From assembly GCA_903837345.1 (NCBI GenBank), contig CAILUG010000057.1:1-64000 (forward strand): 64,000 nucleotides of DNA, given 5' to 3'. This DNA comes from an uncultured Gammaproteobacteria bacterium (GTDB lineage Bacteria; Pseudomonadota; Gammaproteobacteria; Pseudomonadales; Pseudohongiellaceae). Positions within the stretch are counted from its first letter, which is position 1. Every line of letters begins with the position of its first letter. Shown piece after piece: positions 41,485-63,418 of the stretch. A program made the translations under genes and the position numbers. Under the pieces are notes generated by a model. It saw only the letters and a list, made by a program, of their open reading frames with translations, ran no database searches and had not been told where the DNA came from.

Positions 41485-41527
41485 GTGAGCCTTTGGCAAG
41501 TACTGCGTTCTGCGAGGGTCAGTGCAG

Positions 41528-41635
41528 TCGGGCTTCGTCATGAAGATTACGGGGACACGCACAAGTACGTCCCTGTAGCTCCCTGCGGCCATCCATGGCC
41601 GCAGAGGTCCCCTCCATCTTCATGCCGAAGCCCTC
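41528..41635 (-). repeat. Palindromic element, copy 2
   Basis: Arms at 41528-41556 and 41607-41635 pair at 23 of 29 positions. The 50-base core (41557-41606), read on the minus strand, has GCGGCCA-N4-TGGCCGC, then ACAGGGACGTACT and ends in GCGT. It lies 43 bases after the stop of the EntS-like gene. The 17 bases 41640-41656 just outside the arm match those after copy 5 (46831-46847) at 15 positions. Confidence 0.85.
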
Positions 41636-41690
41636 TTCCGAAATCTGCGCGTGTTCGTTTCGGTTGAATGAATTACGCGCTGAACCAGAG

Positions 41691-41802
41691 AGCCTTGGGC
41701 AGAGTAATGCTTCTGAAACCGTCGGAGGCCATGGATGGCCGGAGGCGAGCCTACAGGGACGTACTCGTGGCGTGTTTCAGCAGCATTACTCTGCCCAAGG
41801 CT
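41691..41802 (+). repeat. Palindromic element, copy 3 (reference copy)
   Basis: Arms at 41691-41719 and 41774-41802 pair at 28 of 29 positions. The 54-base core at 41720-41773 begins CGTCGGAGGCC, contains a GGCCA/TGGCC mini-stem, then ACAGGGACGTACT, and ends GGCGT. The arm sequence is nearly that of copy 7; the three differences between their left arms are matched by compensating changes in the right arms. The pair with copy 2 is divergent. Confidence 0.9.
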
Positions 41803-41900
41803 GTGCTCTGAACAAGAATTCGACTCAAGCATTCATCATATTTGCGCAACAGCAGTGGCATAATGCTCCGGCCTTTCCGCACATCCTTAGGAGCAAGGTT

Positions 41901-43608: not shown

Positions 43609-45288
43609 TTAAGGTTGGGCTCTCGCAGGAGCTTTGGTCTGTGATGATCCCGGCTTGGCACCCAGTTCCAGCAAAACGCCGGCTGTTGCCTTGTTGGGCG
43701 GTGCGTTGCCACCGAAACGACCGGCACCGGCTGCCTTGCCCATCGCCATATCCAGTGCCGTATTGCCGAAGTTGTCCTCAATGTTGAGGTTAGCGCCATT
43801 CTGTGCCAACAGGCGAATGAAATCGTTCCAGCCATTCTGGGCCGCGCCATGCAGCGCACTGCGCCCCTGGTCTTCCCGCGCATCAACCCTGGCTCCGGCC
43901 GCCAGCAACAGTTTCGCGGCAGCGATGCCGTTCTTTTCATCGCGGAAGCGACCGCGAATATCGACGTTGTTGGAGCCGAGCCCCGATACTGCCATCAGCG
44001 GCGTATAACCGGGCTGGTTTTTCAGATTGGCGAGGGCGCCATGTTTGAGCAACAGTTCCACCATGGCCACATCGCCGGCTTTGGCTGCGCGTATCAACGG
44101 TGTGGTACCGGTGGTGAGCATGCTGTCGCCACCACGATCGTTGCCGAGCGAGCGGTAGGGGGGAAACACTTTCAACTGCATGTTGGGGTTGGCCCCTTTT
44201 TCCAGCAATAAAGTGGCGATTTGCACCGGTGTGGTCGCATCCTGTGATGGCCGGTCCGGACGACCTCCGCGCGGCACCGTGTTGAAATCCACAGTGGAGT
44301 AGAGCGGCGCCCGGCCCCAGGTATCCCAGCGATTCACGTCGGCACCGGCCTTGATCAGGTAAGCCGCCAGATCCCAGCGTGCATTCAGGGTTGCCATCAA
44401 TAGCGGCGTGATCCCGTTCGGATCTACCTGGTTGATCATGGCTTTGTGTTCAACCAGCGCTTTGGCACAAGCCACGCAGCCTTCACGCGCAGCAAACAGC
44501 AGCGCAGTGAGGGCGCCCAAGGGTCGGCCCTGCGGCCGCGGTTCAGCGGTGACCTGGCGTTCCCACTCCTGTTCACTCGAAACTGCGTCGGGATCGGCGC
44601 CTTTCTGCAGCAACAACTCCACCATTTCCGGCTGGCTCTGCGCACTGGCAAACATCAACGCCGTCTGTCCGCGCCACTTTTCGCTGGCATTGACGTTGGC
44701 TCCATGCGCAATCAGCAACCTGGCAGCATCCACATGCGGAGTGCGCACCGTGCTCATCAATGCAGTCTGGCCTTCCAGCGTCGGTGACTCCACATCAGCG
44801 CCGGCATCGAGCAACAATTTCAACAAAGACGTCGAACCAAGCACCCCGGCCTCCGACATTGGTGAAGAACCATAATCATTGCGCGCTTTCACTTCAGCTC
44901 CGGCCTTGATCAACACTTTGGTCAATTCCACATTGCCGTTGTACACAGCCCAGTGCAGCGCAGTAGTACCATCCGCAGAGTGCTGCTTCACATCTTCCTT
45001 CGCCGCAATGGCAGCAACGACTGCATCAACATTGTTGGTGCGCGCATCCTCAACAAGATTGGCAAGAGCAGATTGAGTATTTGCAACTGACAGAAAGCAA
45101 AGCGCCCTGAAACAGAACGAGAGGGCTCGGGGCCGGTGGAGGTTTCGACGACTGTCTGAGGCCTGGACGGCCGAAGCCAAGCCCCCATGGATGGGTTCAC
45201 GGCGTGTCGGCGAAACCTCCACCGGCCCCGAGTCGTGCACCAAATCCCAAAGGGCGCCAAAAAATTTAAAACAAAAAGAAATCATCAC
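43609..45288 (-). CDS. Exported ankyrin-repeat protein with repeat element in its 5' end
   Basis: Protein of 559 residues with about 10-12 ankyrin repeats (for example DGTTALHWAVYNGNVELTKV, GRSALHGAAQNGWNDFIRL). The N-terminus is odd: after MMISFCFKFFGALWDL, about 37 residues are encoded by a palindromic element (45124-45234), then a second hydrophobic stretch ending NTQSALA that looks like the original signal peptide. No other in-frame ATG exists before about residue 147, so the frame either reads through the element or uses a rare start. Ankyrin proteins often occur beside DUF1552 and DUF1592 genes, as here. Its binding partner is unknown. Confidence 0.8.
   Translation of the reverse strand: MMISFCFKFFGALWDLVHDSGPVEVSPTRREPIHGGLASAVQASDSRRNLHRPRALSFCFRALCFLSVANTQSALANLVEDARTNNVDAVVAAIAAKEDVKQHSADGTTALHWAVYNGNVELTKVLIKAGAEVKARNDYGSSPMSEAGVLGSTSLLKLLLDAGADVESPTLEGQTALMSTVRTPHVDAARLLIAHGANVNASEKWRGQTALMFASAQSQPEMVELLLQKGADPDAVSSEQEWERQVTAEPRPQGRPLGALTALLFAAREGCVACAKALVEHKAMINQVDPNGITPLLMATLNARWDLAAYLIKAGADVNRWDTWGRAPLYSTVDFNTVPRGGRPDRPSQDATTPVQIATLLLEKGANPNMQLKVFPPYRSLGNDRGGDSMLTTGTTPLIRAAKAGDVAMVELLLKHGALANLKNQPGYTPLMAVSGLGSNNVDIRGRFRDEKNGIAAAKLLLAAGARVDAREDQGRSALHGAAQNGWNDFIRLLAQNGANLNIEDNFGNTALDMAMGKAAGAGRFGGNAPPNKATAGVLLELGAKPGSSQTKAPARAQP
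45124..45234 (+). repeat. Palindromic element, copy 4, inside the ankyrin gene
   Basis: Arms at 45124-45152 and 45206-45234 pair at 27 of 29 positions. The core (45153-45205, 53 bases) begins TGTCTGAGGCC like copy 7 but has the second-type right half with GATGGGTTCAC, as in copy 1. The element is 111 bases, a multiple of three, and read on the minus strand it has no stop codon in the ankyrin frame. Confidence 0.88.
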
Positions 45289-45291
45289 AAA

Positions 45292-46611
45292 TCACACTTC
45301 TTTGAACTTGCCATCACTGTCGCCAATCCTGTCCATGTCGATGCCGACCTTTTCCATCAGCGTCAGATGCAAGTTGGCCAACCTGGTTTTTTCCGGATAT
45401 TTGATGTGCTGATTGCCTTTCAGCTTGCCGGCAGCACCGCCCACCAGCGCAGTAGGCAACGGATAATGGTTGTGCAAATTGCTGTCACTCATGTTGCTGC
45501 CGAACAGGATCATGCTGTTCTGCAACATGTTGTTCTCGCCGTCATGGGTTTCTGCCAGTTTCTTCACGAACTCGGCAAACAGCTGCGTGTTGTAGGCTTG
45601 CAGCTTGGCCAGCCGATCCAGCTTCTGCGGATTGTTCTGGTGATGGGACAGCGGATGGAACGCATCGGGAATCCCGATGAAGCTGTAAGGCTGGTTGCTC
45701 ACTTCCGCTGCCATCATGAAGCTGGTGACGCGGGTCAGGTTGGCGCGCCAGGCCAGATGAATGATGTCGAACATCAGCCGGATATGTTCATCGAAACGGT
45801 CAGGGATGCCGGCCGGAGTAGGCGGCAGAGCCAGTGAATCATTTTTGCCCGACTGCAGTTTTTGGGTACGGCGTTCGATTTCCCGTACTGAATCCAGATA
45901 ACCATCGAGCGCAGTCTGGTCACGCGCGCCCAGCGTTTTGCGCAAATCGCCGGCTTCACGTGCCACCATGTCGAGCAGGCTGTTGTTTTCGCGCGTGAGG
46001 ATCACGCGTTCGGCCGGTGTATCACCCTGACCGAACAGCCGCTGGAACAGTTTGCGCGGATTGTGTTCCATCGGCAGCGGCGTAGAAGGTGTGCTGAAGC
46101 TGATGGTCTTGCCGAACGAACAGCCATAGTTGCGATCACAGGCACCTTCACCACCTTCTTCTTCGGTGGCCACTTCCAGCGACGGCATTGGAGTGTCCTG
46201 CGAAATCAGCTTGGCCATCATCTGGTCGATGGTGACGCCGCCCCATGGATCCTGGCTGATGCGCGGATGCACACAGCTGAGCCAGGTACCGGGCGTGACT
46301 GCATGCACAGGCTCGGCTATGGCCGGAAAATTTTCCAGTTCACTGATTACAGTCAGGTATTTCTGGTAATCCTTCAGTGGCTGCAGGATGGGCTGCAAAT
46401 CGAAATCAGCACCGACTTTGGTGGGGGTCCATTTGCTCATTACTGCGCCGTGCGGAAAATAGATAAAACCGACGCGTGGTTTGGGGGCTGCGGCAGTCTG
46501 CGCGATCGCAGTCGCAGCCGGAATCATTGCATCCAGAAGGGGCAATGCGATGCAGGCGCCCAACCCGCGCAATACAGTGCGGCGTGGCAGGTATTTTTTG
46601 GTCAGAAACAT
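45292..46611 (-). CDS. DUF1552 protein, Tat-exported
   Basis: Protein of 439 residues beginning with a Tat signal (PRRTVLRGLG) and a hydrophobic region ending near AIAQ. The body has FIYFPHGAVMSKWTP and the ELENFPAI, SCVHPRIS and MSDSNLHNHYPLPTALVGG blocks of DUF1552, a family related to DUF1501/sulfatase-like secreted proteins. DUF1552 genes are nearly always next to a DUF1592-type gene, as here (46897). The pair is thought to form a periplasmic redox or hydrolytic system, with unknown substrate. AGAGGA gives a good ribosome site. Confidence 0.9.
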   Translation of the reverse strand: MFLTKKYLPRRTVLRGLGACIALPLLDAMIPAATAIAQTAAAPKPRVGFIYFPHGAVMSKWTPTKVGADFDLQPILQPLKDYQKYLTVISELENFPAIAEPVHAVTPGTWLSCVHPRISQDPWGGVTIDQMMAKLISQDTPMPSLEVATEEEGGEGACDRNYGCSFGKTISFSTPSTPLPMEHNPRKLFQRLFGQGDTPAERVILTRENNSLLDMVAREAGDLRKTLGARDQTALDGYLDSVREIERRTQKLQSGKNDSLALPPTPAGIPDRFDEHIRLMFDIIHLAWRANLTRVTSFMMAAEVSNQPYSFIGIPDAFHPLSHHQNNPQKLDRLAKLQAYNTQLFAEFVKKLAETHDGENNMLQNSMILFGSNMSDSNLHNHYPLPTALVGGAAGKLKGNQHIKYPEKTRLANLHLTLMEKVGIDMDRIGDSDGKFKEV

Positions 46612-46653
46612 GGGCGTTTCCTCTTTAATAAATAGAACTATCTAAACTTTCCC

Positions 46654-46829
46654 GGTCAGGAGCAGGTGCGGGCTTCTGCGACACGCTACGTTGGTGGGAA
46701 ACTCACAATTCCCTCCAGCCACTTCGCAAAGCTCCGTGGCGTTCAGCAATGCACAAAGCTGTGCTTTGTAAGCGCATTGCTTCACCCATGGCCTCCGACG
46801 GTCGCAGAAGCCCGTACCTGCTCCTTCCC
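46654..46829 (-). repeat. Palindromic element, copy 5, with enlarged core
   Basis: Arms at 46654-46682 and 46801-46829 pair at 26 of 29 positions. The core is 118 bases instead of 50-54. Its two ends match the family (ACGCTAC on one side, GGCCTCCGACG on the other), while the middle holds extra hairpins: 46718-46740 with GCCAC/GTGGC, and 46745-46781 with a stem of 15 pairs. It lies between the DUF1552 start and the DUF1592 stop. Confidence 0.8.
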
Positions 46830-46896
46830 TGATATCTGTGCGTGTTCACCAAACATTTTGATGAACGCTTGTTTATATCTTGTTACTGCTACTCGC

Positions 46897-62810: not shown

Positions 62811-62901
62811 CTGCACCTCTGTTTTCTGCCTGGAGGTATTCCATAAGAACAGATCAAAAGCGGCCTTACTAAACATCTGAGTATTACAAGCTCTAGCGCG
62901 A

Positions 62902-63013
62902 AGCCGGGGGTGGGCACAGGGTTCGCCGACACGCTACAAGTACGTCCCTGTAAGCTCGCCTCCGGCCATCCCTGGCCTCCGACGGTCGGCGAACCCTGTG
63001 CCCACCCCCGGCT
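62902..63013 (-). repeat. Palindromic element, copy 6
   Basis: Arms at 62902-62930 and 62985-63013 pair at all 29 positions. The 54-base core (62931-62984) is the reverse of copy 3 with about 50 of 54 identities, while the arms are unrelated to those of copy 3. It is divergent to copy 7, with 44 bases between. Confidence 0.92.
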
Positions 63014-63057
63014 TTCAGACATTGTTTTGAGTTCAGGAACCCACAACAGAATCTGAG

Positions 63058-63168
63058 AGCCTTGGGCAGAGAGACGCTTCTGAAACTGTCTGAGGCCAGG
63101 GACGGCCGAAGACAAGCTACAGGGACGTACTCGAGGCGTGTTTCAGAAGCGTCTCTCTGCCCAAGGCT
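63058..63168 (+). repeat. Palindromic element, copy 7
   Basis: Arms at 63058-63086 and 63140-63168 pair at all 29 positions. The core (63087-63139, 53 bases) starts TGTCTGAGGCC, contains GGCC-N6-GGCC, then ACAGGGACGTACT, and ends GGCGT. The arms differ from those of copy 3 at three positions, each compensated on the other side. Confidence 0.92.
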
Positions 63169-63418
63169 GTGCACCGAAATGCAGTTTTGTCCAAACCCAA
63201 ATCAATACTTGAATAAGTGCGAACCTGAACAGATCAGGATTTTGCAAAAATTGCTTCAAGTCGGTGCGTTGGCGGTCGTTATTGGCTGATAAGCATACGG
63301 ATATGGGGTGAGCAAAAGATCAACCCCGGCTTTGGAAGGCAGACTTCCTGATTTCGCCTGGATTGACACTTGCCGATTCAAATCCGGATTGGCATTTATT
63401 TTCTGGGGAAAACCAACA

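Follow-up and report, generated by a model that had tools for sequence, protein, structure and literature searches.

A copy of a dispersed palindromic repeat lies in frame and antisense in the apparent signal-peptide region of an ankyrin-repeat gene of an uncultured gammaproteobacterium (family Pseudohongiellaceae), where, judging from the sequence, it is probably translated from an upstream GTG or ATG and would thereby lengthen the n-region of the signal peptide. The insertion is confirmed, with support from orthologues. Taken alone it adds one more case to a known phenomenon, and the repeat family is more interesting than the ankyrin insertion. The positions of the gene, the element, and the other copies of the family in the window, i.e., the whole stretch of 64,000 nt that was analysed, are listed in Table 1. 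The genome of the window is referred to as G000, and the congeners with which it was compared as G003, G004, and G007.

Table 1. Features of the ankyrin locus and copies of the repeat family in the window.
Feature	Position	Strand	Remarks
Ankyrin-repeat ORF, 559 aa	43609..45288	-	Start GTG 45286-45288 or ATG 45283-45285
DUF1552 gene, upstream of the ankyrin ORF	45292..46611	-	Stop three bases before the ankyrin GTG
Palindromic element	45124..45234	+ (antisense to ankyrin gene)	Inverted repeat and folding
Full match to family covariance model R1	45106..45252	+	134.7 bits; copy belongs to the model-building set
Outer stem, left arm	45126..45152	+	Variable, covarying among copies
Outer stem, right arm	45206..45232	+	Variable, covarying among copies
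Inner hairpin 1, GGCC-TGGAC-GGCC	45160..45172	+	Lacks the A of the A-N-GGA loop in the ankyrin copy
Inner hairpin 2, GCC CCC-ATGGAT-GGG, 5-nt bulge, GGC	45181..45203	+	
Type B copy, doublet partner	41510..41654	-	Sub-threshold Rfam TwoAYGGAY match 41519-41643
Type A copy, other partner of 41510..41654	41673..41820	+	
Copy, first of second doublet	62884..63031	-	
Copy, second of second doublet	63040..63186	+	
Copy whose arms match but whose interior is longer and different	46636..46845	-	46.9 bits
Copy cut by the contig end	1..70	+	

The element in the ankyrin gene

The ankyrin ORF lies downstream of the DUF1552 gene and of a DUF1587/1592 gene, and its product contains ankyrin repeats recognised by Pfam (e.g., residues 106-138). 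The same protein has 23 matches in G000, and many paralogues of it occur in this genus. An earlier note on this DNA had described a palindromic copy of 111 bases, in frame and without a stop codon, near the start of the gene, and this element is indeed real. Its two arms (27 nt, 96% complementary) enclose a spacer of 53 nt, and the element folded as single-stranded DNA reaches -45.2 kcal/mol (z -7.86), a value equalled by none of 200 shuffled sequences. It makes up codons 19-55 of the ORF (111 nt, 37 codons, in frame and free of stops) and is flanked there by VMISFCFKFFGALWDLVH and LSFCFRALCFLSVANTQSALA. The extent given in the earlier note is slightly short, since the match to family model R1 spans 147 nt, a length that is likewise divisible by three.

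Orthologues and history of the insertion

The comparison of orthologues that had been proposed in the earlier note was carried out on 57 genomes and on the 11 genomes of the genus, and provided three close orthologues. That of G007 (L071/L139; 87% identical) has the insert in frame, of equal length and filling the corresponding codons, and on account of this shared insertion an assembly artefact was rejected. The orthologue of G004 (L072, on a contig shared with L061; 88% identical) aligns with 102 nt less in this region and keeps the frame. The orthologue of G003 (L073; 76% identical) starts MKRLVLKVSVCIALATASVLG and has a short hydrophobic N-terminus without the element, its N-terminal alignment being uncertain.

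In a tree of five neighbouring genes (5706 nt; 153, 129, and 123 informative sites), G007 and G004 group together with bootstrap values of 67 for DNA and 96 for protein. This grouping, combined with the presence of the element in G000 and G007, points to an ancestral insertion followed by a loss in G004. The site in G004 also resembles the ends of the element, with a score of 12.2 vs. 2.6 for the site in G003 and a match as good in 19 out of 2000 shuffles; an equally good match to the element ends occurs in 25 out of 1316 pieces of the window, some of these being real copies. The evidence from G004, a 77% complete genome in 580 contigs, is suggestive and modestly supports the reading that its gene most likely lost the hairpin by an in-frame deletion of 102 nt. 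The insertion is common to G000 and one congener, and was most likely lost from a second.

Probable translation of the element

In-frame ATG, GTG, or TTG codons occur among the first 80 codons in G000 at positions 1, 2, 16, 17, 23, and 37, the last two being inside the element, and those common to G000, G007, and G004 (1, 2, and 17) are all upstream of it. From the end of the element to codon 80, the limit of the scan, neither G000 nor G007 has an in-frame ATG, GTG, or TTG, which makes it most likely that the element is translated, as a lengthened n-region of a putative signal peptide recognised by hydropathy. The earlier note had offered two options, an addition of 37 residues ahead of the signal peptide or initiation at a rare codon beyond the element. 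The former is supported, the additional residues preceding the hydrophobic core; the latter is not supported, and for both carriers an ATG, GTG, or TTG start beyond the element was rejected as far as codon 80. An orthologue starting downstream of the element, which according to that note would place it in the leader only, was not encountered either: G007 has no such start, G003, without the element, starts upstream, and G004 has one late GTG at its own codon 34, late in the hydrophobic core.

We propose that translation starts at the GTG or ATG ahead of the element, so that the pre-protein would possess an n-region approximately 37 residues longer before the hydrophobic core, or 49 residues if the whole model match is counted. 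The additional length would be tolerated, since there is no constraint on the n-region and the signal peptide would presumably be cleaved off; both the translation of the element and the cleavage of the signal peptide are putative steps. Translation may also start inside the element, at GTG 23, which is present in both carriers, or at ATG 42 in G007; G000 has in addition a TTG at codon 37.

Differences between G000 and G007 within the element are distributed over codon positions 1, 2, and 3 as 8/10/5, compared to 47/21/182 in ankyrin codons 76-500, and the leader beside the element shows 4/5/5 and 4/7/10. By this measure the peptide encoded by the element is unconstrained, as is the neighbouring leader. 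The arms behave differently from the peptide. At the ankyrin site, 23 of the 29 arm pairs are unchanged between G000 and G007, three are changed on both sides and still pair, and two are changed on one side and still pair; no pair is broken by a single change and one by a double change, so that pairing is kept at five of the six changed pairs. Nine orthologous comparisons at seven sites (three comparisons share one site) comprise 261 arm pairs, of which 200 are unchanged, 24 show double changes that keep the pairing, 18 single changes that keep it, 18 single changes that break it, and one an unpaired double change. From these patterns the outer stem is judged to be less free to change than the peptide, and it is the structure rather than the peptide that appears to persist.

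The lack of conservation of the peptide would also fit an untranslated leader, with an open frame upstream that has arisen by accident and a genuine start at a rare codon, e.g., CTG, beyond the element. The family is, moreover, otherwise intergenic, and the trimmed ankyrin copy lies 54 nt from the DUF1552 stop. However, the stretch from the element to codon 80 contains no ATG, GTG, or TTG in either G000 or G007, the frame is kept in both carriers as well as in the 102-nt shorter gene of G004, and the element-free gene of G003 likewise starts at the upstream end. We, therefore, consider this explanation quite unlikely. Equally small is the chance that the hairpin acts as a regulatory device that slows or gates ankyrin translation soon after initiation, although the predicted fold of the mRNA is very stable (-102.9 kcal/mol over 251 nt, z -5.13) and most of the pairing is the same or restored in G007. 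A distance of 53 nt separates the ATG from the beginning of the arm (approximately 27 nt if the weaker outer pairing that is predicted is included), and G004 keeps the gene without the hairpin. Since pairing is also kept at unrelated sites of the family, no gene-specific reason for its maintenance is needed. The control of translation by the hairpin that was suggested in the earlier note thus finds no support. Translation from the upstream GTG or ATG through the element is, consequently, the reading that we prefer.

The repeat family

Pattern searches of G000 gave 41 and 52 hits, the reversed control of the second search giving 12, and a family covariance model was built from 27 copies. In this model 93% of the cells are paired and 26 of the 29 outer pairs have changed on both sides, whereas none of 500 shuffles scored as high. 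The model has at least 53 matches in G000 and matches 31 of the 57 genomes (G000 included), belonging to 12 out of 29 genera; it has no match in G003 or in the four genomes of genus g2. Within the genus of G000, the repeat occurs in 10 of the 11 genomes. Contigs C5, C6, C12, C18, C28, C39, and C56 of G000 and the window, at positions 1-70, begin or end in or beside copies. The assembly thus seems to break at the repeats, and the copy number is probably underestimated. A comparison of one type A copy with plasmid and phage collections gave no match.

The copies consist of a variable, covarying outer stem around two inner hairpins with A-N-GGA loops. Both loops have an invariant GGA throughout the 27 copies, and the preceding base varies (T in 21 and G in 6 copies for the first loop; G in 23, T in 3, and A in 1 for the second). 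Among 47 matches in other genomes, GGA was found in 46 first and in 46 second loops, and A-N-GGA-N hexaloops in 39 first and 43 second loops, on stems of many sequences. This loop conservation is partly built in, because the seed patterns contained GGA and the model was made from their copies. In a small unbiased check, five palindromes of the window that were found by their arms alone (arms of at least 27 nt, spacers of 50-54 nt) all carried both GGAs. Matching arms around a longer interior with extra hairpin-like sequence occur in the window (46636-46845) and at L021:1045-1273 and L005:1340-1568; these copies possibly represent a subfamily of greater length or a nested insertion.

Wherever neighbouring copies are separated by less than 400 nt, their arrangement is (-,+) (26 of 26 cases). 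At the place orthologous to the doublet 41510-41820, the model matches only once in G007 (L139), and 191 nt of G004 (L061) are without a visible palindrome. With genes called by a simple codon-score script and orthologous sites counted separately, 120 of 142 copies have a called gene on both sides (convergent in 37 cases, divergent in 12, and co-directional in 71, of which 32 sense and 39 antisense), 20 have no called gene on one side, and two lie in a gene, both being the ankyrin orthologues, i.e., one site. Similarly, among 86 copies in three congeners, again with simple gene calls, the ankyrin site (two orthologues) is the only intragenic one. A sense-strand bias was not found: co-directional single copies comprise 17 sense and 24 antisense (p 0.35), and the doublet members 15 of each. 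In near relatives the ratio of convergent to divergent copies is 22:7, compared to 18:28 for all gaps, a reference that includes the repeat-bearing gaps (p 0.002).

Relation to TwoAYGGAY and possible binding of CsrA

No Rfam family was found in the window at the cut-off. The TwoAYGGAY family (RF01731, clan CL00106) has a cut-off of 43 bits, and the copies in the window score below this, the best (type B) reaching 23.1; the ankyrin copy gave no TwoAYGGAY match, and among the nine candidates scored in G000 none reached the cut-off. Among 20 loci scanned with this model, only L118 of the relative G019 passes, with 43.7 bits. Matches to microRNA families of Rfam, far below their cut-offs, were rejected as an effect of the long stem. 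The family described here shares with TwoAYGGAY a long outer stem that encloses a pair of GGA-loop hairpins, but its loops are A-N-GGA-Y instead of A-Y-GGA-Y, those of the ankyrin copy being TGGAC and ATGGAT. TwoAYGGAY matches at E 0.01 or better occur in 61 of 293 genomes of the order, 24 of them above the cut-off, with a highest copy number of at least 9 per genome. Among the hits listed, many show paired GGA hairpins on quite different stems. At loci L164-L183, TwoAYGGAY, the Rfam type of which is cis-regulatory, is likewise a palindrome dispersed in multiple copies, in several families of the order, and it too has inverted neighbours, e.g., in G166 and G117.

A passage of PMC4333381 gives TwoAYGGAY as predicted, from motif matches, to bind CsrA. 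We regard it as a serious, if tentative, possibility that the family is a candidate CsrA/RsmA-binding RNA spread as palindromic repeats, in which one CsrA dimer would be bound by the two A-N-GGA loops of every transcribed copy. The A-N-GGA loops recur in both hairpins while the stems vary, the architecture is that of TwoAYGGAY, which is itself multicopy in this order and the cut-off of which is passed by the copy in G019, and G000 possesses one csrA. The loops also fit the RsmE consensus, quoted in a passage of PMC6849547 as A/U CANGGANG U/A. However, the absence of an orientation bias argues against a simple mRNA tag, and the conservation of the loops owes something to the GGA-containing seeds. 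Because the ankyrin copy lies antisense, the loops in the mRNA of this gene read UCC instead of GGA. Given this and the unbiased orientation, binding of CsrA is putative, and the ankyrin mRNA would not be involved in it. A search of the open-access literature, PMC4383904 included, showed no link between CsrA and dispersed palindromes. A more far-reaching version is rather doubtful: that the repeats form a dispersed CsrA/RsmA-binding RNA family within a wider TwoAYGGAY superfamily, present in tens of copies per genome across this gammaproteobacterial order, and that they are kept as inverted doublets, each giving one CsrA-binding copy whichever way it is transcribed, and serve genome-wide as a CsrA sponge of which one copy has turned into ankyrin coding sequence.

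Possible mobility of the repeats

We consider it unlikely that the repeats are mobile palindromes of the REP/REPIN type that depend on a RAYT (Y1) transposase for their movement. Like REPs and REPINs, the copies are short palindromes between genes and form inverted doublets, and the single arrangement of these doublets (26/26), the intergenic location, and the over-representation of convergent sites (p 0.002) would fit such an origin. Outside the genus, moreover, Y1 domains occur in 20 of 21 carriers vs. 15 of 25 non-carriers (p 0.006, uncorrected for relatedness). Unlike REPs and REPINs, however, the copies have long variable arms, and within the genus the Y1 domain is absent from 10 of the 11 genomes, including nine of the 10 carriers, among which G000. 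In the set of 57 genomes as a whole, the repeat and Y1 are not associated (Y1 in 21 of 31 carriers and 15 of 26 non-carriers, p 0.58), and the repeat was found in none of 40 Y1-gene regions (chosen by hand from the Y1 matches, approximately 2 kb on each side). RAYTs have an N-H-x-H motif, the first histidine of which belongs to the HUH motif. The Y1 proteins of approximately 330 aa that are common in other genera of this bacterial family (16 read) have D/N-Q/E-Y-H at the motif, without this first histidine, and, therefore, look catalytically degenerate. This conserved Y1-domain protein (MARPLRIEYPDA..., L184-L199), with its apparently degenerate HUH motif, is a candidate domesticated transposase.

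MITEs such as ERIC or NEMIS are dispersed inverted-repeat units with occasional copies in genes. The family resembles them in both respects but differs in that its arms vary between copies and covary, and no parent transposon was found, Y1 being the only type sought. From the element-free intergenic sites A (G004), B, and C (G007), neither a target duplication nor the ends of the insertion were established, because these sites are too diverged.

Significance

Palindromic repeats in frame in genes are known from Rickettsia: a passage of PMC10969869 describes RPEs as palindromic repeats of approximately 150 bp located in frame in Rickettsia genes, nearly half of those of R. conorii being intragenic, each with a conserved peptide. 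The ankyrin copy is comparable in that this palindrome, too, keeps the frame of the gene in which it lies. The present family differs in being intragenic at one site (2 of the 142 copies) and in encoding an unconstrained peptide, RPEs being set apart here by description. The ankyrin gene thus provides a case outside Rickettsia of a palindromic repeat becoming apparent coding sequence, with both carrier and non-carrier orthologues.

The larger point is the family itself: covarying palindromes, tens of them per genome, whose A-N-GGA loops come in pairs and whose inverted doublets have a fixed layout. If the plus strand binds CsrA, this would contribute to an explanation of the orphan Rfam family TwoAYGGAY, and Csr/Rsm control would gain a distributed layer. 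If it does not, these repeats would point to another protein by which the loops are recognised, in either DNA or RNA.
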